This document shows positions 16,834-31,128 of a DNA stretch of 33,999 nt, piece after piece. Under the pieces are notes generated by a model. It saw only the letters and a program-made list of their open reading frames with translations, made no database searches and was not told the origin of the DNA. Where the stretch lies: positions 1 to 33,999 of IMG/VR virus record IMGVR_UViG_3300044640_001145, one strand, 5' to 3'. The first letter of the stretch is position 1. The number at the start of each line of letters is the position of its first letter. Source of the stretch: a virus. A program made the translations under genes and the position numbers.

Positions 16834-17086
16834 TTTCTTTATAACGTTCATTAAGTTCTTTTGAGTTTACTCCAAGATATTCTAACTCAACTTCACACCC
16901 ACAATCATTATTAAATCTTAGTGTATCAATAATTAAAATTTTACTACCACTAACCTTATGTGTTACAAAATCACCGTTTTTGAATTTAAACTTTTGTTTG
17001 TAATATTCTTCGTCACTACAACCACATCCTGTTAGAAATAGGATGGTAACAAGTACTGTCACCATCCCAATAAATCCATTCTTCAT
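16817..17086 (-). CDS. Lipoprotein coupled to the SPFH gene
   Basis: 89 residues from ATG 17086, which overlaps the stop of the SPFH gene by one base (TAATG). The N-terminus MKNGFIGMVTVLVTILFLTG followed by Cys is a lipoprotein signal (lipobox LTGC). The mature part CGCSDEEYYKQKFKFKNGDF continues with a small beta domain and a second Cys pair (DCGC). A longer frame upstream lacks a signal and is rejected. Coupling suggests it works with the SPFH and two-span membrane proteins in the envelope. Confidence 0.8.
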   Translation of the reverse strand: MKNGFIGMVTVLVTILFLTGCGCSDEEYYKQKFKFKNGDFVTHKVSGSKILIIDTLRFNNDCGCEVELEYLGVNSKELNERYKEIELTK

Positions 17087-18036
17087 TATTTGTTTAGGTT
17101 TAAAAACAATCCTGAACCACCTGCTACCGTTGTTGGTAATTTTCCATCCCAAGCAGACGCCTTTAAGTACTCAATATACATAGGTGTTAATTGAGTTTGT
17201 TTAATCTTAATTGAAAGTGCTGACGCATTTGCGTTGATTATAGTTTCAGCAGAATCCGCTCTTGCTACGGCTACTTTACGTCTTCCTTCAGAGATTGCTG
17301 CGATAGCTTGTTGTTCAGAGGCTTCAGCTTGTTGGATAGCCTTTGTTTTAGCGATAATTGACTCTTGTAATGCCTCAGGTGGTGTGATATTAGTTCTCAA
17401 CTGAGATACGTTAAACCATTTAGATAACCTAACATTACATTCTGCAACAATTGCTGATTCAAATGCTTGTCGGTGATTAAAAATACTATCTACCTCCCAT
17501 GTGTTAGCTACGTCATTTACTGCCCCAATAATAGCGTTTTTCAACCAACCCTTTTCAATTTCACTAATAGATAATCTTAAATTAACAAACATATCACCAA
17601 TAGCATCCTCACGTAGAGAATAGTTAAATGTTGGTTTAATGGTTGCTGAGAATCCACCTTTAAGGATTACACCTTGGTCTTCATACTCAATGTGTTGTTG
17701 GTATGTTGGAAACTCCAATACTTGTTCTGTCCAAGTGTTATAAAGTACCCAACCAGTTTTATACTGATAACTTGATACACCTCGTTGGTCTCCGACCAAA
17801 TTAATCTTTAATCCTTTGTGACCTGCGTCAACTTTTTCAATCGCAAACGGTTGGGTCATTGAAATAACGATACCTACAACAAAAATACCAATCGGTTTAA
17901 TGAGCCAAGATGGGTTGAATCGTTTACTATCATGACCGTAATGGTTTTGGGTTACCGTAAACATACTACCTCTTGTTTTTAGAACGGTAAGGATAACCGC
18001 AATTAAACATACTACAAAAATTACTGTACTAATCAT
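17086..18036 (-). CDS. SPFH (prohibitin/stomatin-like) membrane protein
   Basis: 316 residues. Two hydrophobic segments (about 1-18 and 44-62) are followed by the SPFH domain from VDAGHKGLKINLVGD to about 215, including a hydrophobic strand set and the region NITPPEALQESIIAKTKAIQ. Then comes an Ala/Glu/Gln-rich coiled coil (QQAEASEQQAIAAISEGRRK) as in flotillins and HflK/C, and a C-terminal GGSGLFLNLNK. Such proteins form ring-like membrane assemblies that control proteases (FtsH) or microdomains. Here it may block host FtsH or reinforce the membrane against competing phages. It overlaps its upstream partner by 4 nt and its downstream lipoprotein by 1 nt. Confidence 0.88.
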   Translation of the reverse strand: MISTVIFVVCLIAVILTVLKTRGSMFTVTQNHYGHDSKRFNPSWLIKPIGIFVVGIVISMTQPFAIEKVDAGHKGLKINLVGDQRGVSSYQYKTGWVLYNTWTEQVLEFPTYQQHIEYEDQGVILKGGFSATIKPTFNYSLREDAIGDMFVNLRLSISEIEKGWLKNAIIGAVNDVANTWEVDSIFNHRQAFESAIVAECNVRLSKWFNVSQLRTNITPPEALQESIIAKTKAIQQAEASEQQAIAAISEGRRKVAVARADSAETIINANASALSIKIKQTQLTPMYIEYLKASAWDGKLPTTVAGGSGLFLNLNK

Positions 18037-18319: not shown

Positions 18320-18940
18320 TTAAAAATAAGTTTGTTCAAAATAAAGTATTTGGAATTTATCCCCTTTATCAATCAAATTGGATGCGTTAATCAAATCATT
18401 GTATTCAATTACAGCTCCTTTTTGGATTTCTCTAAATTCAGTTAAAAAATCAAATGTTGTGATATCATCAGAAAAAACATCCTGAGAATCTTTATTATAA
18501 TCTTTCATTAAAGCCAACTCCATAGTGTAAGCTCCATAAACAACATCAAGTAAATTACCAAAAGTGTGTTTTGTTTCTGTTTTTTCTATTTCAGGTAAAA
18601 TATTAAAACCTGTCATATACTCTTGTAGTTTTTGAGCGTGTTCTAACTCATCGTCAGCCTCATTTTTAAAGAACTCAGCAGCTTTCTTATAATTCATATC
18701 CTGACACCAGTTAGTAGCCGCTCTATAATAGTAATGAGCTGTATACTCATCTTTAATTCTATTATTAAGAATTTCTATAACCTTACTACTTAATTTATAA
18801 AGTTCAGGTTCACCTTTTGTTTCAGTTTTCTTTTCTTCAGTATCTTTGTTTTCTTCTTCCTCTTCTTGTTCACGAATTCTACTCTTTCTAAGAATTTCAT
18901 CAACAATAGCTGAAGTACTTCTATTAATATTTCTACTCAT
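18320..18940 (-). CDS. Ferritin-like iron-binding protein
   Basis: 206 residues. Residues 45-206 form the ferritin four-helix pattern: helix A with NRIKDEYTAHYYYRAATNW (Glu65 position), helix B with NEADDELEHAQKL (E98-x-x-H101), helix C with MELALMKDY and helix D with FREIQKGAVIEYNDL. The typical dinuclear ferroxidase residues are largely present. A 44-residue charged N-terminal extension (ILRKSRIREQEEEEEN) is not usual; it contains an I-R-E site, so capsid entry is possible but weakly supported. An ATATTTATAA box precedes the gene. It may store iron or protect DNA from oxidative damage alongside the glycosylase. Confidence 0.86.
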   Translation of the reverse strand: MSRNINRSTSAIVDEILRKSRIREQEEEEENKDTEEKKTETKGEPELYKLSSKVIEILNNRIKDEYTAHYYYRAATNWCQDMNYKKAAEFFKNEADDELEHAQKLQEYMTGFNILPEIEKTETKHTFGNLLDVVYGAYTMELALMKDYNKDSQDVFSDDITTFDFLTEFREIQKGAVIEYNDLINASNLIDKGDKFQILYFEQTYF

Positions 18941-20249: not shown

Positions 20250-20377
20250 TATTTTAATTTTAATCCTATTAATAATCTAACCCTTCTCTTGAATCTAATT
20301 CTAAGATAACGGTCAACAACTTTTTTAATATCTTTTTTTTGTTGTTTTGTTAATTCTGGTCCCTCAGTATCATACAT
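20249..20377 (-). CDS. Basic microprotein in the RNA-repair operon
   Basis: 42 residues, MYDTEGPELTKQQKKDIKKV followed by VDRYLRIRFKRRVRLLIGLK. Very basic, helical. It overlaps the cREC gene by 8 nt and the HAD gene by 1 nt, so it is a firm part of the operon. RNA binding is plausible. No family recognised. Confidence 0.6.
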   Translation of the reverse strand: MYDTEGPELTKQQKKDIKKVVDRYLRIRFKRRVRLLIGLKLK

Positions 20378-20831
20378 AATACTCAATTTTAACTCTTATA
20401 CAATCTTGTGATTTACCTTCATTCATTAAAAAGTTATTGATATAACCCATGATATTAGCTGAACCTATTGGGTTAGCTGAATGAACCACAACTTTAGGGA
20501 AATAAAAATTTTTATCCCTTTTTTTCTCAGACCTACTCATGTTGATTCTATGTTCATTCAAAGAATAAAACAAATTAACTAACCATTTAACCGCGTCGTA
20601 ACCAGTTTTTTCTTCTATGTTCTCATAATCTAATTTGTAGTTAGGTGAAACATTGTTATAATACTCATTCATAGCAGTATCACCCAAGTCATGGTCTAAT
20701 GAAATTAATTCGATGTTATTCAAACCAACTTTATTTATTAAGTCTACAAATTCATAAAAACTCCTAACAACCAACCAATCTTTGTCATTAGGAGTTCTTA
20801 TGTCATCCAAATATATTTTTACTTTATTCAT
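20370..20831 (-). CDS. cREC (cyclic-phosphate-processing receiver) domain protein
   Basis: 153 residues. MNKVKIYLDDIRTPNDKDWL (acidic pair D9-D10), ISLDHDLGDT, TGYDAVKWLVN, and KVVVHSANPIGSANIMGYIN match the cREC family, a receiver-like fold found in RNA repair operons and proposed to process 2',3'-cyclic phosphates. It lies directly beside HAD, HAD-SAK and metallophosphatase genes, which supports that role. Promoter TTG-N20-TATCTTTG, box four bases before the ATG. Confidence 0.8.
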   Translation of the reverse strand: MNKVKIYLDDIRTPNDKDWLVVRSFYEFVDLINKVGLNNIELISLDHDLGDTAMNEYYNNVSPNYKLDYENIEEKTGYDAVKWLVNLFYSLNEHRINMSRSEKKRDKNFYFPKVVVHSANPIGSANIMGYINNFLMNEGKSQDCIRVKIEYYV

Positions 20832-20835
20832 ACCA

Positions 20836-20866
20836 CAAAGATAACCTATTAATCAACAAATTCCAA
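20836..20866 (-). promoter_or_regulatory. Promoter of the cREC/HAD genes
   Basis: TATCTTTG (20836-20843) and TTG (20864-20866) inside the end of the phosphatase gene; the box ends four bases before the ATG. Confidence 0.7.
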
Positions 20867-21544
20867 ATGATTTGTGTTTTTATCCCATAAAACATTCACA
20901 GGTTTATTGCGGAACTCATATCGTCCATTTAACACAGCTGCGTTAATGTAGTGAGTATTTCCATCAAACACATAACCATAACCTTCGTGGATGTGTCCAA
21001 ATACGTGAATTTTTGGTTTGATTACTTCAACTCGTTTCATTAGTTCTTCACAACCAACATTTTGATTTGGGTATTTTACGTAATCCAATTTGCCAAATGG
21101 TGGTCCGTGAGTGATAAGAATGTCAGTACCAACTGTTATCATATCCCACTTCTCTTTTAAAGCTTGTCCTCTTGGTAAGTTAAATGCCCAATTATGAAAT
21201 TCAGGTTGCCAAGGAGTACCCCAAACTTTAACCATATCGTCATAATCCTCATCACCAACCAATAAAAGTTCGTCTTGTAAATATTCAACTGTTTTATAAC
21301 CAGTTAACAAACCTTTAGTTTCATTAGGTTGGTCTTGGAAACCAAAGTCGTGATTACCTGCTATGAAAATTTTGTGGTCATAGTTATCAATTTTATCAAA
21401 CCACTTAAGAAAATTTTCAATTTCAGTTTTATAACCTCTACTAGTGATATCACCAGCACAGATTAACATATCACCACCAGGAAGAAAACCGTTAAGTTTC
21501 TCGTGTTTGGTGTGTGTGTCACTAATAAAGGTTAATTTTTTCAT
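20849..21544 (-). CDS. Calcineurin-like metallophosphoesterase
   Basis: 231 residues. Full metal-site set: ISDTHTKH (D9, H11), CAGDIT (D32), AGNHDFG (N64-H65), ITHGPPFG, and VFGHIHEGYG. It resembles the MPPED1/MPPED2-type subfamily. Such enzymes hydrolyse cyclic phosphodiesters or RNA 2',3'-cyclic ends, which would fit the cREC and HAD genes downstream. Lambda and T4-like phages carry related phosphatases, but the exact substrate is unknown. Promoter TTG-N19-TATATTTG directly upstream. Confidence 0.88.
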   Translation of the reverse strand: MKKLTFISDTHTKHEKLNGFLPGGDMLICAGDITSRGYKTEIENFLKWFDKIDNYDHKIFIAGNHDFGFQDQPNETKGLLTGYKTVEYLQDELLLVGDEDYDDMVKVWGTPWQPEFHNWAFNLPRGQALKEKWDMITVGTDILITHGPPFGKLDYVKYPNQNVGCEELMKRVEVIKPKIHVFGHIHEGYGYVFDGNTHYINAAVLNGRYEFRNKPVNVLWDKNTNHLEFVD

Positions 21545-22947: not shown

Positions 22948-23625
22948 TTATTCTTTTTTTTCTGTTGCGTATTTTATACCCATAATGGTACCTACAATAG
23001 AAAATGCATTTGTTAATAGAATACCAAATATGTTAGACCAAGTAGCACTAATAACTTGAGTGTCTTTGCCCATTAATAATGTGAAGACATAAACACCAGT
23101 TGTTACAAAACCCACACCCATGATTATCCATAGAGCAACTCTAACAATGGTGGAGATTAGTTCATTTTGAGTTCTTTTTTGTAATAAATCTAAATCGTTT
23201 TCGGCCATATCTTTAGCTTTTTCCGCATCTATTCTAGCCTTTTCAGATTTAGCCATTTCATTTTTTAACTCTTCAGTTAATCTAAGGTTATCTTCTTTCC
23301 ACTCATTAAGTTCCTTATTCTGAACCTCATACGTCAACTTGGAATCCTCAACGTCTTTTAAAGTTTCCTGTAATTCTTCTAGAATTCTTTCGTTTTCATT
23401 ATTTAAATTAGATAGTTCTTGATTTTGTTTTTGTATTTTTTTTGTCATATCAAGACGCTTCTTCCTTTTTTCGGTATCTCTTAATTCACAATCTTTTAAA
23501 TAATCTTTAAATTCTTCATCATCCTCAGAATCAATTAATTTTGTGATATTACCCTCAAGACCTACATTTTTTTCTTTATATAAATCTATTAAACTTTTTT
23601 TAGTAAAACTTTCTATTTTAATCAT
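22948..23625 (-). CDS. Coiled-coil protein with two C-terminal membrane spans
   Basis: 225 residues. A long charged coiled coil (about 55-150, with ELSNLNNENERILEELQETL) is followed by two helices at about 158-184 and 194-217 (VALWIIMGVGFVTTGVYVFT; FGILLTNAFSIVGTIMGIKY). It overlaps the receiver gene by 4 nt and is last in the signalling operon. It is likely the membrane-bound output or scaffold of the pathway; no family is recognised. Confidence 0.78.
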   Translation of the reverse strand: MIKIESFTKKSLIDLYKEKNVGLEGNITKLIDSEDDEEFKDYLKDCELRDTEKRKKRLDMTKKIQKQNQELSNLNNENERILEELQETLKDVEDSKLTYEVQNKELNEWKEDNLRLTEELKNEMAKSEKARIDAEKAKDMAENDLDLLQKRTQNELISTIVRVALWIIMGVGFVTTGVYVFTLLMGKDTQVISATWSNIFGILLTNAFSIVGTIMGIKYATEKKE

Positions 23626-24059
23626 TTGTAAACTTTAAATGGTGCGGTTCTATTTTTATAACCTTCGTAATCTTTTCTAAATTCTTCTAGTCTTGGTTCT
23701 ATATCGTCTGATTTAATAATCCAAAACTGTGCTCCAGCTTGTAATGCTTTAGCTTGTTCATCTGGTTCATTAGACGATGAAATTATACCAATAACCACAT
23801 GGTTACCATATTCAAAGTTTATTTTTCTAATTAACTCAATACCATCAAAAGAACTACCAATAATATTTAAGTCAACAAAAACACATTCTGGTTTATTGTC
23901 TTCATTACCACTTTGGAACCATTTTTGGAATAGTTTTGCTGCTTCGTCAGAACTGTTTAACGCGTTTAAAGACAAACTTATATCTAATAAGGAACACGCA
24001 TCCTCAAATACTAAATGGAATAAATCCTCGTCATCAACTAATAATATAGAATCAATCAT
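23622..24059 (-). CDS. Stand-alone receiver domain (response regulator)
   Basis: 145 residues, whole protein is one REC domain: acidic pair D9-D10 in ILLVDDED, phospho-acceptor D63 in CVFVDLN, switch Ser94-96 in GIISSSNEPDE, and Lys116 in WIIKSDD. There is no DNA-binding or enzymatic output, so it acts by protein contact like CheY or Spo0F. It lies 7 nt after the first kinase and overlaps the coiled-coil membrane gene by 4 nt, its plausible partner. Phosphorylation is expected from one or both of the kinases. Confidence 0.9.
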   Translation of the reverse strand: MIDSILLVDDEDLFHLVFEDACSLLDISLSLNALNSSDEAAKLFQKWFQSGNEDNKPECVFVDLNIIGSSFDGIELIRKINFEYGNHVVIGIISSSNEPDEQAKALQAGAQFWIIKSDDIEPRLEEFRKDYEGYKNRTAPFKVYK

Positions 24060-24066
24060 TTTTTTT

Positions 24067-25470
24067 TTAATTTTTATTTAATTTAACCGTTATTTTTGTA
24101 CCAGTGTTAATTTTTTCACACATCATACTAAAACCATGTTCTTCTAAAATTGTTTTGGTTATACCTAAACCTAAACCAACTTCGGAATTACTCTTTTTAT
24201 TTAAATATTCACCTGTTGTTCTTTCGAACTCTTTTTGTGAAAATCCAACACCATTATCTTCAATAATTAAATCATTATTATCCATGTAAATTTTAATTTC
24301 TTTATTTTCACTACTATTATATTTTAACCCATTTTTAATTAAATTATCAATAGCGTTCCAAAAAAGAGTTTCATTTACATTTAGTGTAACTAATTCACTA
24401 ATTTCTACCTGATTTTTATATGATGTATTTGTTAAGTATTTTAATAAAGATTCTTTTATATCAACCATATTTCTATCTAAAACTACAGTATTTTTCACAA
24501 GGTTTGTAAACTCATAAACACTTTTATATACTTTTTGTGTGTGTGCCAAACCATCTTTTATCATTTTAATTGAGGGTGTAATTTTTAAGTTATTCATTTC
24601 CTCAATTGAAATTCTTTTTTCTAATGACGATAACCCTCTTGGTATATAGGTGTTAATACCTGAATGCATGTCGTGTCTAATTATTCTAGCCGCATATTCA
24701 AGGTAAGTGTTTTTCTTGTTAATGTCTTTTAATTGGTTTTCGATTTCTATGTCTTGGACTTTAATTGTTTTTCTTTGTAATAAAACAATAATACCTAAAA
24801 CCAAAACAGAAAGAACAATTGTGGACCACCATAAATATTTTTTTAAGGTTTTTTTATCGGTAACTAAATCATCATTTTTAACACTAAGATTAATGATATT
24901 TTTTTCTTTACCTAATATTTGTATAGTACTTGTTTTAGAACTGATAACTTCTTGACTAGCTTTATTTTTTAATAATTCTTTTTTTTCTTTTAATAGTTTT
25001 TGGAGTTTTGACTCTATCTCATCAGCAATTTTTTTTATATCTTTTTTAGATAAATTATCGTATGATTTTGGTAGGTCATCTAAAAATTTTTGGTCGGCTT
25101 TAATACTAGATAATTCTGAGTCACTTAACTCTTGTACGGGTTCTTCTTTAGGTGTGTCAAAAACTTTTTCAGGTTTTAAATCAACAACATCAATATAGGT
25201 ACTAACCTTATCTAAATACCAATCTGACTCATCATACATACCTTTATTATAAAAAGAGATACCAATTTCTTGACATAAGCTTGATTGGTATTTAGTTAAT
25301 TTTTTATTTGGTTCGTAATTTAATTTTTTAATTAAACTAGTTATACGACTATCACTAGGACATGTAGGTTCAATCTCTGTTTTTTTGGGGTTATTATCAG
25401 TCTGTGAATTTACATTTAAAGAAGTAAAAAAACCCAAAAACATTATTGTTATTAAAATATTTTTTATCAT
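24067..25470 (-). CDS. Membrane sensor histidine kinase
   Basis: 467 residues. Signal peptide 1-22, an extracytoplasmic region to about 211 with TPR-like and coiled segments, one membrane helix about 212-232 (YLWWSTIVLSVLVLGIIVLL), and a cytoplasmic kinase. The phospho-acceptor is His266 in IIRHDMHSGINTY. The ATP domain shows N-box DNLIKNGLKYN, G1 EDNGVGF and G2 GLGLGI. The kinase module is highly similar to that of the gene at 26078 (same RHDMHSGINTY and PRGLSSLE). It overlaps the exported protein gene by 4 nt, suggesting that protein feeds the sensor. Confidence 0.92.
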   Translation of the reverse strand: MIKNILITIMFLGFFTSLNVNSQTDNNPKKTEIEPTCPSDSRITSLIKKLNYEPNKKLTKYQSSLCQEIGISFYNKGMYDESDWYLDKVSTYIDVVDLKPEKVFDTPKEEPVQELSDSELSSIKADQKFLDDLPKSYDNLSKKDIKKIADEIESKLQKLLKEKKELLKNKASQEVISSKTSTIQILGKEKNIINLSVKNDDLVTDKKTLKKYLWWSTIVLSVLVLGIIVLLQRKTIKVQDIEIENQLKDINKKNTYLEYAARIIRHDMHSGINTYIPRGLSSLEKRISIEEMNNLKITPSIKMIKDGLAHTQKVYKSVYEFTNLVKNTVVLDRNMVDIKESLLKYLTNTSYKNQVEISELVTLNVNETLFWNAIDNLIKNGLKYNSSENKEIKIYMDNNDLIIEDNGVGFSQKEFERTTGEYLNKKSNSEVGLGLGITKTILEEHGFSMMCEKINTGTKITVKLNKN

Positions 25471-26081
25471 AATTTTGGGGTTAATTTATATGGGAATAAT
25501 ACTATTCTTGGTTTATATTTTGGGGATATATTTAATTCCCAACCAATCTCAGGACTTTCTTCTTTAAGTAGATTTATTTGTTTCCAATAATATATATTAG
25601 TAACATCACCTCTTGTAATTAAACTATAATTACCACTTCCTCTATGCGATACTAACATATACAAACTTAAATCAATAACTTTAACTGTTGAGTCTTGCCA
25701 AGAATAATATAGGTACCCATTATCTATCGACGACGATAAAATCCAATTCTCTAACGTATCTATTTTAGAAATTAAACTATCGTAATAATTGTTTTGGACG
25801 GTTAACAAACTATCCAATTGGTTAATAACACTATCTTTTATTTTAATATCGTTATTTAATAACGTGTTAGTATCATTAACTAATTTTATTTCTGTTTTAT
25901 ATTTTTGTATTCTAATTTTTTGATTCTCAATTAGTGAATTAATATCATCAGATTGTTTTTTTGTAAGAATAACCACAGAATCACCTTTTAATTGTGTCTG
26001 GATAGGGTAGGTTGGTTGTGAATACACTATACTTACCATACTTATGAAAAATATGGTTAATAAATTTTTTAGTTTTATCAT
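25467..26081 (-). CDS. Exported coiled-coil protein in the kinase operon
   Basis: 204 residues. Sec signal peptide MIKLKNLLTIFFISMVSIVY-SQ, then a coiled coil (about 45-115, with NQLDSLLTVQNNYYDSLISK) and a C-terminal beta domain (DNGYLYYSWQDSTVKVIDLS, GWELNISPKYKPRIVLF). Four-base overlaps with both kinase genes point to a joint role, perhaps a periplasmic or outer-membrane ligand-sensing partner. No family recognised. Confidence 0.78.
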   Translation of the reverse strand: MIKLKNLLTIFFISMVSIVYSQPTYPIQTQLKGDSVVILTKKQSDDINSLIENQKIRIQKYKTEIKLVNDTNTLLNNDIKIKDSVINQLDSLLTVQNNYYDSLISKIDTLENWILSSSIDNGYLYYSWQDSTVKVIDLSLYMLVSHRGSGNYSLITRGDVTNIYYWKQINLLKEESPEIGWELNISPKYKPRIVLFPYKLTPKL

Positions 26082-28003
26082 TTTAGTTCAATTTTCATTT
26101 TTGTCCCTATGTCATTTTTCTCACACGAAATATTAAATTTATGTTCTTCTAAAATAGCTACACATATATTAAGCCCTAGACCAGTTCCAGATTCTTTTTG
26201 GCCTTCTTTTCTGGTATATGGTTGGGATAAATGAATAAAATCTTTTTGTGTAATCCCTCTACCGTTGTCTTGTATAATTAGATTACCATCTTCCATATAT
26301 ATTTTAACAAATTTTGTATTACTATCATTATACTTTAACCCATTACGAATTAAATTATCGACTGCGGTACAGAATAATGGTTCATTAACTTCTATCGTTG
26401 GTAACTCATCAATAATAACTTGACTACTATATGCTGTCGCTGATAAATAATCCTCAAGTATATCTTTTAAATTACATTCCGTTTTATTTAAAACAACATC
26501 TTTCTTTACAAGATTTGTAAATTCGTAAACCCCTTTATATACTTTTTGGGAATGTTTTAAACCCTCTTTAATCATTTTAATTGGGGCCTCAATTTTTAAA
26601 GTTTTAATATCTTCGGGGGTTAATCTTCTTTCTAAAGAACTTAATCCTCTTGGCATATAAGTATTAATACCTGAATGCATATCGTGTCTTAATATTTTAG
26701 CCGCATGTTCTAGGTAAGTGTTTTTCTTTTCAATTTCTTTCTTTTGTTCGTAGGAATTGGTGATATCTGTCGCGATTTTCATAACACGATAAACCTTACC
26801 ATCTAAACCGATAACTGGATTGTATGTTGCTTGTAGATACACTAAAGAACCGTCTTTTTTAATTCTAGTAATTTCACCGGTAAATAACACCCCTTCATTT
26901 AATTTTTCCCAAAAAAGAGAGTATTCTTCACTTTTTGAGTATTCCTCATCTATAAAAATTCTATGGTGTTTTCCAACTACTTCATCCTGTAAAGAATATC
27001 CCATAGTTTCTAAAAACAAATTATTAGCAAAAATGATGTTTCCTTCTAAATCAAACTCAATAACTGCGTTAGATTTATTTATCGCGTTCATTCTATTGCG
27101 AATTTCAACTTCCTTTTTTTTAAGTTCTGTAACATCTTGTCTTATTGAAGCAAATCCATCCAATTTACCATCGGTATCAAAAATTGCTCTAATAAAAGTA
27201 TCAACGTAATATAATTCTCCTGATTTTCCTTTATTGGTAACAACGTCATTCCATACATCACCTTTCATTACCGTTTCATACATTTTACCCCAATATCCAT
27301 CAGGTTGTAATCCCGAATTAACAATAACATGGTCTTTACCAACTACCTCATCCAAAGACCACCCAGAAACATCCTCAAATTTTTTATTAACATATGTAAT
27401 TTTACCTCTTTTATCAGCAGTAGATATAATTGTCGATACGTCAATAAATTTTTCTGTTTCTTCTATTTTTTTATTTAAATTGTTTGTTTCTTTTATTGAA
27501 TAAGCAAAAGTGTATAAAGAAGATAATAATTGAGTAAAATCAACCTCAAAAGAATCCCATTCACGTAATGTAAAACTTTCAATACATATAACACCAATAG
27601 TTTCCCCAAAATAAATGATAGGTACATCTAACATAGATTTAATACCCAGTGGTTTTAAATAACCATCAGTAAAACAAGATGTTGCTGGATGTTTTTCAGC
27701 ATCATTAGCTATTATTATTGGGTTCTTTATTAATTCTTCGAAATACGGTCCAAAATCCTTTTCAAAGATTTCTAAACCATCATACCACATATTTTCAGAT
27801 TTAACATATAATTGTTGGCAAACAATAGATGTTTTATTTTTGTTGTATAACCATATAGAACATCTATCAACATTAATTGAGTCTACAACTTCTTTAGTTA
27901 GAATTTTAGAACCTTCTACTATATCCCCTTTATAAAAAAGAGGGTTATGTGTTTGTGAAATTAAAGTTTTATTTAATTTATTAATGTAAAAATTTTTATC
28001 CAT
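26078..28003 (-). CDS. Cytoplasmic GAF-PAS-PAS histidine kinase
   Basis: 641 residues without signal or membrane segment. A GAF domain (about 20-180; CSIWLYNKNKTSIVCQQLYV, IGVICIES), PAS 1 (about 185-300), and PAS 2 (about 305-420, with KIATDITN ending). His440 lies in ILRHDMHSGINTY, the N-box DNLIRNGLKYN at 549-559, G1 QDNGRGI and G2 GTGLGLN. First gene of the five-gene signalling operon. GAF/PAS input suggests a small-molecule or redox signal. The kinase core is paralogous to the membrane kinase downstream, pointing to duplication within the phage or its donor. Confidence 0.93.
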   Translation of the reverse strand: MDKNFYINKLNKTLISQTHNPLFYKGDIVEGSKILTKEVVDSINVDRCSIWLYNKNKTSIVCQQLYVKSENMWYDGLEIFEKDFGPYFEELIKNPIIIANDAEKHPATSCFTDGYLKPLGIKSMLDVPIIYFGETIGVICIESFTLREWDSFEVDFTQLLSSLYTFAYSIKETNNLNKKIEETEKFIDVSTIISTADKRGKITYVNKKFEDVSGWSLDEVVGKDHVIVNSGLQPDGYWGKMYETVMKGDVWNDVVTNKGKSGELYYVDTFIRAIFDTDGKLDGFASIRQDVTELKKKEVEIRNRMNAINKSNAVIEFDLEGNIIFANNLFLETMGYSLQDEVVGKHHRIFIDEEYSKSEEYSLFWEKLNEGVLFTGEITRIKKDGSLVYLQATYNPVIGLDGKVYRVMKIATDITNSYEQKKEIEKKNTYLEHAAKILRHDMHSGINTYMPRGLSSLERRLTPEDIKTLKIEAPIKMIKEGLKHSQKVYKGVYEFTNLVKKDVVLNKTECNLKDILEDYLSATAYSSQVIIDELPTIEVNEPLFCTAVDNLIRNGLKYNDSNTKFVKIYMEDGNLIIQDNGRGITQKDFIHLSQPYTRKEGQKESGTGLGLNICVAILEEHKFNISCEKNDIGTKMKIELK

Positions 28004-28920: not shown

Positions 28921-31128
28921 ATGAACTTAATTAAATACCTTTTTATACTAATTTCTTTTGTGACCTATTCACAATACTGTCCTTATTTAGGACCAGACCA
29001 AATACTACCTTGTGGTGTTGGGTCAACAACATTAACTGCCGATTTTAGTCAATGTGGACCAGGTTCAAATCCAAATCAAACAACAAACTACGGTGTTACA
29101 AATATTCCTTATGTAACACAAACAAATACTGGTACACAATTATTTATGTCGGATGATTCACAACAAGGTCCTTTTAATATTGGGTTTACATTTTGTTTCT
29201 TTGGACAAACATACAATCAATTTTGGGTTGGTTCTAACGGTTGGATTTCTTTTTCACCGGCACAACCAACAACATTTACTTCAGCAACAATACCTAATGG
29301 TGCGGGTACAGTACCAAAAAATTGTGTCATGGGTCCTTGGCAAGATTGGCACCCAGGTTTAGGTGGGCAAATTAGGTACCAAGTTCAAGGTACAGCACCT
29401 TGTAGAAAATTAGTTGTTAGTTGGGTTGGTGTCCCTATGTTTTCATGTACAAATTTACTGGGGACATTTCATACAGTGATTTATGAATCAACAAACGTAA
29501 TAGAAAATTATATTCAATCAAAACCAAACTGTCTAGCTTGGGCGGGAGGTACCGCGGTTCAAGGATTACATAATACCACAGGAACCGTGGCGATAACTGT
29601 ACCAGGTAGGAATTCCACACAATGGACAGCAAATAATGATGCGTACCGATACACTCCAAGTGGACCAACTGTTTTACCTGTACCAACATGGTATATTGTA
29701 GGTAACCCAAATCCAATTGGGGTTGGTGCGTCCATTACGGTTACACCACCTGTACAAGGAGCTAATTATACTTGTCAACTAGTATATCCTTCTTGTAATG
29801 TTGGATGGAATACTTGTAATAGTATTGCCGGTCCAGGACCTGATACGGTGTTTGTACAACCTGGTCCACCTAACTTACCACAACCTACAATTACTTTTAT
29901 TGACCCAACTTGTTATAACTATTGTGATGGTAGTATTAATGTAATCCCTAACGGAACCAATGGTGTCACTACTATTTCTTGGAATACTCTACAAACAACT
30001 TTTAACCCCACTAACCTTTGTTATGGTAATTATAGTTTTTTAATTACAGACGGTATAGGTTGTACCGTAACAGGTAATGTAACACTCACTAACCCAGCAC
30101 AAATAATAATGACACCTATTAGTGGTCCTGATACGGTATGTTATTTATCAACATCAGAAAGTTATAGTGTACCTTCTATGGGTGTTGGTTACAACTACAT
30201 ATGGTCTACAACACCACAAATAATAAATGGTCAAGGTACTGATAATATAACAACGGATTGGTCATTAGAACCTAGTGGTTTATATCAAGACTCTATAAGT
30301 GTTTATTCTACTAGTCCTATTGGTTGTAATAGTGATACCTCTTACTTCACTACATTTATTTTAAACATAAACCCTACAATAGACCCTATTGGTCCTTTTT
30401 GTGATTATGATGGTTGTGTAGATTTAGTGGGTTCACCTTTAAATGGTACTTTCTTAGTCAATGGGGTTCAGACTGATGAATTTTGCCCACAACAAGGTAT
30501 CATAACAAACAATGATGTAACTTATACATATACACAAAGTAATTGCCCATTTGATACAACAATCAACGTTATTGTAAACCCACAACCAATCATAACATCT
30601 GTAACACCTTCATATGAATTTAACCAACTTTGTGAAGGTGATAGTATTTTTAGAATCTATACAGCTTATTCATCTTTATCTGGGTTGTTTGATTGGGTTG
30701 TTGAAGGTGATACAATACAAGATAATAGTTTACCTTATGTTTGGAATAATGTTGGTTTTTATACAATTAGCGTTTCCCAAACGGTTAATGGTTGTGTTTC
30801 TAATGAAGAACAAGCTAATATAGCAATACAAGAATGTCCACAAGAATTAATTTATATACCTAATACATTTACCCCCGATGGTGATGCTTTCAACAATATT
30901 TGGTTACCAATATTTACTGATGGGTTTGATGTCTATGATTATAATTTATTGGTATTCAATAGATGGGGTGAAACAATTTTTGAATCATACAATCATACCG
31001 TTGGTTGGGATGGTACTTATAATAATAAAATGTGTTTTGATGGGATTTATGTTTGGAGAATAATGTATGGGTCTGAGTATGATGACTCACGTAAAATGAT
31101 AACAGGACATTTAACAATTATGCGATGA
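28921..31128 (+). CDS. Secreted T9SS type B (gliding-motility C-terminal) protein
   Basis: 735 residues. Signal peptide MNLIKYLFILISFVTYS. The N-terminal beta domain (GFTFCFFGQTYNQFWVGSNG) resembles the choice of bacterial surface-protein folds. Around 318-395 a SprB-like repeat occurs (PTITFIDPTCYNYCDGSINV; FLITDGIGCTVTGNVTLTNP). The end, about 645-735, is the gliding-motility-associated CTD: IPNTFTPDGDAFNNIWLP, LLVFNRWGETIFES, GWDGTYNNKMCFDGIYVW. This CTD directs export through type IX secretion in Bacteroidetes. Composition is more Gly/Pro/Thr-rich than its neighbours. It could be adhesive or modify the host surface. Confidence 0.9.
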   Translation: MNLIKYLFILISFVTYSQYCPYLGPDQILPCGVGSTTLTADFSQCGPGSNPNQTTNYGVTNIPYVTQTNTGTQLFMSDDSQQGPFNIGFTFCFFGQTYNQFWVGSNGWISFSPAQPTTFTSATIPNGAGTVPKNCVMGPWQDWHPGLGGQIRYQVQGTAPCRKLVVSWVGVPMFSCTNLLGTFHTVIYESTNVIENYIQSKPNCLAWAGGTAVQGLHNTTGTVAITVPGRNSTQWTANNDAYRYTPSGPTVLPVPTWYIVGNPNPIGVGASITVTPPVQGANYTCQLVYPSCNVGWNTCNSIAGPGPDTVFVQPGPPNLPQPTITFIDPTCYNYCDGSINVIPNGTNGVTTISWNTLQTTFNPTNLCYGNYSFLITDGIGCTVTGNVTLTNPAQIIMTPISGPDTVCYLSTSESYSVPSMGVGYNYIWSTTPQIINGQGTDNITTDWSLEPSGLYQDSISVYSTSPIGCNSDTSYFTTFILNINPTIDPIGPFCDYDGCVDLVGSPLNGTFLVNGVQTDEFCPQQGIITNNDVTYTYTQSNCPFDTTINVIVNPQPIITSVTPSYEFNQLCEGDSIFRIYTAYSSLSGLFDWVVEGDTIQDNSLPYVWNNVGFYTISVSQTVNGCVSNEEQANIAIQECPQELIYIPNTFTPDGDAFNNIWLPIFTDGFDVYDYNLLVFNRWGETIFESYNHTVGWDGTYNNKMCFDGIYVWRIMYGSEYDDSRKMITGHLTIMR

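Follow-up and report, generated by a model that had tools for sequence, protein, structure and literature searches.

A histidine kinase (HK), a stand-alone receiver (REC) and a membrane protein (p225) form a conserved gene module of uncultured phages, i.e. a phage two-component system that probably feeds into the lysis programme. The module itself is well supported and its role in lysis control is likely; from the nature of the parts we infer a mechanism in which REC would gate p225. We analysed a 33,999-base IMG/VR record (IMGVR_UViG_3300044640_001145, here called the window), in which an operon on the minus strand spans positions 22948-28003. Its five genes, all on that strand, encode a soluble histidine kinase of 641 aa with a GAF, two PAS and a HATPase_c domain (HK1, 26078..28003), an exported coiled-coil protein of 204 aa with a signal peptide (p204, 25467..26081), a membrane histidine kinase of 467 aa with a periplasmic domain and a HATPase_c domain (HK2, 24067..25470), the stand-alone receiver of 145 aa with a Response_reg domain (REC, 23622..24059), and a 225-aa protein composed of a coiled coil and a membrane hairpin (p225, 22948..23625). 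These domains were assigned with Pfam, which returned nothing for p204 and p225. From HK1 to p225, the junctions are two 4-nt overlaps, a 7-nt gap and another 4-nt overlap. The five genes and their junctions, as described in a first-pass annotation, are thus borne out by the ORF positions, and all catalytic motifs that it listed (H440, H266, the N, G1 and G2 boxes, and D9, D10, D63 and K116) were located in the sequence. Since there are many relatives, the catalytic residues are invariant in 88 of 88 complete HK-REC-p225 triplets and dN/dS is low, the operon is not a chance assembly. At the sequence level it is a complete viral two-component system, as had been claimed. The conserved unit, however, is HK-REC-p225; the p204-HK2 pair is an optional sensor insert that is absent from most loci.

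The two kinases of the operon differ in their predicted location. HK1 (H440, N550, D579 in a DNGRG motif, and a GTGLGL box at 606) is soluble by hydropathy and presumably cytoplasmic. HK2, in which H266 is the phosphorylatable His and the N, G1 and G2 boxes are present, shows one strong hydrophobic segment (211-238) plus a signal-like N-terminal stretch, from which a periplasmic domain and a single membrane span are predicted. As the kinase cores of HK1 and HK2 share 57% identity, they look like a duplicated core equipped with different sensors; a second kinase is found in 15 of 120 loci. None of the Pfam models of the DHp (HisKA-type) domain had a match in the operon kinases, and the dimerisation domain is therefore divergent. 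For the HK1 family, 22 sequences were aligned. p204 combines a signal peptide recognised by hydropathy with a coiled coil and a predicted beta-rich C-terminus, although its AlphaFold model is of low confidence (pLDDT 67). It was found in 10 unique loci, every time in the order HK1-p204-HK2, and is likely the periplasmic sensory partner of HK2.

To define the module, we surveyed 147 loci with distinct REC genes, 140 of which had room for p225 and 120 for a kinase. A p225 homologue lies downstream of REC on the same strand in all 140 (overlapping by 4 or 1 nt in 111), and a kinase lies upstream in 119 of the 120. Gene junctions within the module are mostly overlaps of 1-4 nt; in about a dozen loci extra genes separate REC from p225. 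The distance matrices of HK, REC and p225 correlate with r values of 0.57-0.83, which 0 of 500 permutations reached. With median dN/dS values of 0.08 for REC, 0.13 for the kinase core and 0.25 for p225, all three proteins are under purifying selection. The sensor ends differ among loci: some are anchored in the membrane and others soluble, GAF may be present or absent, and most contain PAS. The module thus consists of a fixed core with changeable sensors.

This linkage bears on the question of whether the circuit is closed. Conceivably, the phage kinases act on response regulators of the host, or REC titrates host kinases, so that host signalling would be hijacked. A precedent is the set of agr genes in Clostridium difficile phage phiCDHM1, where a kinase of the same HATPase_c class, without an identified receptor domain and without a response regulator, has been proposed to signal to the host (PMC3901668). 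The present system differs from phiCDHM1 in that the circuit is complete and occurs on hundreds of contigs. Given the strict linkage and the correlated evolution of HK, REC and p225, and the distance of the plasmid-borne cellular relatives (at most about 31% identical), a hijacking role is very unlikely. Phage-borne histidine kinases, sometimes two, are also described for uncultured pelagiphages, in passages that place them in curli (T8SS) clusters, link them to curli genes and mention neither a two-component system nor a partner receiver (PMC9599517). In the open-licence literature, phrase searches matched neither a phage histidine kinase nor a response regulator of a phage, and nothing relevant turned up there that joins holins or lysis with response regulators.

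The first-pass annotation had also spoken of a phosphorelay, a term that does not apply in its strict sense. No second receiver or HPt step was seen, i.e. an HK-REC-HPt-REC series with an HPt bearing a conserved His and a second receiver was not found; Response_reg matched at most once per contig, on 14 of 17 contigs. A relay through p225 was likewise rejected, as no histidine of p225 is conserved across the 88 triplets. Natural fusions among HK, REC and p225 were not found. Elsewhere in the window, a gene at 20370-20831 (minus strand) matches PF20274 (cREC_REC), a cyclic-phosphate processing receiver-like domain. It adjoins a calcineurin-like phosphoesterase gene (20849-21544), and members of this phosphoesterase family are also encoded close to the module at other loci.

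REC, which scores 35.9 bits against Response_reg (cut-off 30.2), is the most conserved gene of the HK-REC-p225 module, and its residues D9, D10, D63, S94 and K116 are invariant in all 88 complete triplets. Its nearest solved natural structure is the receiver 3ilh. With bacterial two-component systems that employ a stand-alone CheY-like receiver it shares the H, N, G1 and G2 boxes of the kinase, the D, D, D, S and K residues of the receiver, and the lack of a DNA-binding output. In contrast to those systems, the module is viral, it has a dedicated coiled-coil, two-span membrane partner in p225, and it resides in a lysis neighbourhood. The nearest plasmid-borne receiver is only about 30% identical to REC (26-31% for the closest ones), and plasmid-borne kinase cores among the matches listed are about 24-28% identical.

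Because REC has neither a DNA-binding nor any other output domain and p225 is its invariable partner, p225 would be the natural effector of REC, and we propose that it acts at the membrane. AlphaFold predicts for p225 (pLDDT 84) a small N-terminal domain, a 149-residue helix and a C-terminal two-helix membrane hairpin; the hydropathy profile shows two C-terminal segments. At least two membrane segments are predicted for p225 in 88 of 88 triplets, and its best conserved regions are the hairpin, the N-terminal domain and the stretch where the coiled coil begins. Foldseek retrieved nothing from the PDB and a sole significant match from BFVD, an uncharacterised protein of an uncultured phage. Comparisons with Pfam, PHROG, Foldseek and hhalign detected no similarity of p225 to known holin families in sequence or fold. 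Kinship with the small two-span holin-like proteins encoded nearby was rejected, as hhalign shows no profile similarity. p225 need not be the holin, since it is larger than usual holins, its profile does not resemble those of the small two-span proteins, and some phages encode a recognised holin in addition to it. It may act as holin or as antiholin, or it may serve to anchor REC and present it to another protein, a small two-span holin.

In the viral collection, at least 593 relatives were retrieved with HK1, at least 561 with REC and at least 484 with p225 as query. Among 50,697 deposited phage records, REC had no match beyond chance-level E-values, p225 had none, and HK1 was matched through its PAS region only. 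The expectation that phages rarely carry such genes therefore holds for deposited records as judged by REC and p225, whereas hundreds of uncultured phage contigs do carry the module. A search of p225 against a bacterial and archaeal genome collection of 84,980 species gave a single match, on a phage contig in a bacterial bin; 244 other genomes from the phylum of that bin had none. HK1 is present with 100% identity on four longer IMG/VR contigs, one of which (226 kb) carries a large terminase, and relatives of the module are located on contigs of 96-304 kb with terminases. One terminase match (G020:127319-130385) is split into two pieces with about 1.4 kb between them, a pattern that an intron, an intein or an insertion would produce.

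It could be argued that bacterial DNA was mis-sorted as viral, or that host genes were captured recently and have no function: the module resembles ordinary bacterial parts, and one p225 relative does sit in a bacterial bin. Yet the contig of that bin itself has terminase and portal-like genes, the 226-kb contig with the identical HK1 has its terminase, there are hundreds of viral contigs, and dN/dS values of 0.08-0.25 contradict a functionless capture. Such an origin is thus extremely improbable. The bacterial-contig explanation was rejected on the terminases of the relatives' contigs, the bin contig and the 226-kb contig, and the assignment to a phage genome stands.

The window also holds several HNH endonuclease genes and a tail-tube match. 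A search for the tape-measure family PF20155 gave one sub-threshold, uninformative match. A tmRNA was located at 1094-1486 on the minus strand (Rfam RF00023, 99 bits), and ARAGORN reported 24 tRNAs. An SPFH/Band_7 membrane protein (PHROG 200) and a ferritin-like protein are encoded at 17086-18036 and 18320-18940 (minus strand). At 28921-31128 on the plus strand, a 735-aa protein combines a CHU_C type IX secretion signal domain with a PKD-like domain; relatives of it occur near the module in three other loci (L006, L007 and L048). These domains suggest that the host belongs to the Bacteroidota and that its type IX system may export this phage protein. DnaK/HSP70-like genes are found near the module in 17 loci (e.g. 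L013:7987-9837, L062:10166-12031 and L125:12228-14120).

A comparison of eight carrier phages revealed that between lineages the terminases share as little as 16-30% identity, while the REC proteins are 70-94% identical; in one pair (L007 and L063) the values are 29% for terminase and 94% for REC. The combination of divergent terminases with similar receivers implies horizontal transfer or an unusually strong constraint on REC, and thus points to a module that moves between lineages or to a receiver that is extremely constrained.

To assess the neighbourhood of the module, we used the 102 unique loci that are flanked by three or more genes on both sides. A cell-wall hydrolase family lies within four genes of the module in 62 of them; some of the family assignments behind this count come from single-linkage clustering, and shared ancestry inflates the co-location statistics. 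The hydrolase was found downstream on the same strand (28), upstream on the same strand (24) or upstream on the opposite strand (21). The families involved are GH19 with PG_binding, Amidase_2, GH24, M15, DUF5675 and an endolysin PHROG. According to the clustering, a GH19 endolysin with a peptidoglycan-binding domain is the commonest flanking gene, followed by the endolysin-like family PHROG 33083 and then by the Phage_holin_4_1 family, whose genes adjoin HK in some phages. Of 11 contigs of 96-304 kb that have GH19, each with one match over the cut-off, 10 carry it no more than about 4 kb from the module (Fisher p 2e-7 over 12 groups, or 1e-5 once related phages are collapsed). In several phages the same-strand GH19 endolysin gene starts 10-12 nt past the end of p225, and in several loci HK, REC, p225 and endolysin constitute a single operon. 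One locus (L245) reproduces the five-gene order of the window and continues directly into a GH19-family endolysin.

The first-pass annotation had offered three guesses as to the role of the operon, and this genomic evidence favours one of them, lysis timing. Since the module is usually beside lysis genes, the viruses may sense cell state for the lysis decision, and the data suggest that the carriers do so to decide when to lyse. As an alternative, phosphorylated REC and p225 could alter the envelope physiology, stress or surface state of the host, the proximity to lysis genes then reflecting shared late transcription. GAF and PAS are general cell-state sensors, a recognised lysis gene is absent from the four-gene neighbourhood in 38 of the 102 loci, and in some loci YceI-like genes flank or interrupt the module. 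That the association with lysis genes recurs across orders, strands and hydrolase classes argues against this alternative, which we consider unlikely. The YceI-like genes either separate HK from REC or directly precede HK (L105:9025-9552, L106, L019 and L022).

For the phage of the window, close linkage does not apply. No endolysin is encoded within the window; all four longer contigs with the identical HK1 carry a phage lysozyme, and a small membrane protein, a GH24 lysozyme and a second endolysin are encoded about 20-21 kb upstream of HK1. Close linkage is therefore not universal, and with the lysozyme about 21 kb from HK1 a link in this phage would act in trans.

The other two guesses, superinfection control and host taxis, found no support here. 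In superinfection exclusion or lysis inhibition, an HK2/p204/p225 membrane complex would respond to a second infection or to damage of the envelope by holding up lysis or preventing the entry of DNA, a function comparable to that of the RI/RIII and Imm proteins of T4. Although the periplasmic sensor module p204-HK2, the membrane effector and the lysis neighbourhood would suit this role, p204-HK2 is missing from most loci, HK1 of the window is soluble and nothing here shows exclusion, which renders it a rather improbable explanation.

If the module controls lysis, the sensors (cytoplasmic GAF/PAS, transmembrane or periplasmic variants, and here p204-HK2) would monitor the condition of the infected cell or of its envelope. 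How far REC is phosphorylated at D63 would then depend on kinase and phosphatase activity, and REC would dock on the N-terminal domain or coiled coil of p225 instead of DNA. Phosphorylation could thereby switch p225, a holin-like or antiholin-like membrane hairpin, to advance or delay membrane opening and hence endolysin action. The usual account of lysis timing in tailed phages is that of a holin clock modified by antiholins, including the holin/antiholin control of T4. To our knowledge, what times known lysis cassettes is the accumulation of holin together with antiholins, and not a kinase-receiver pair. With holin-endolysin cassettes the module shares the position beside endolysins and holins and a membrane-hairpin protein, but p225 lacks detectable similarity to holin families. 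In its most far-reaching form, which we put forward only tentatively, the proposal is that a virus-specific, horizontally moving module uses its phosphorylated receiver to gate directly a new family of membrane effectors, p225, so that lysis becomes a sensed and reversible decision, not a timer.

The findings suggest a circuit of kinase, receiver and putative membrane effector that hundreds of large aquatic phages carry, usually near lysis genes, and describe a viral signalling module whose receiver differs far less between its carriers than their terminases do. p225 would offer a new effector family, and the matching of burst time to host state by phages becomes testable. If the proposed role is true, many environmental phages would compute their lysis time from metabolic or envelope signals.
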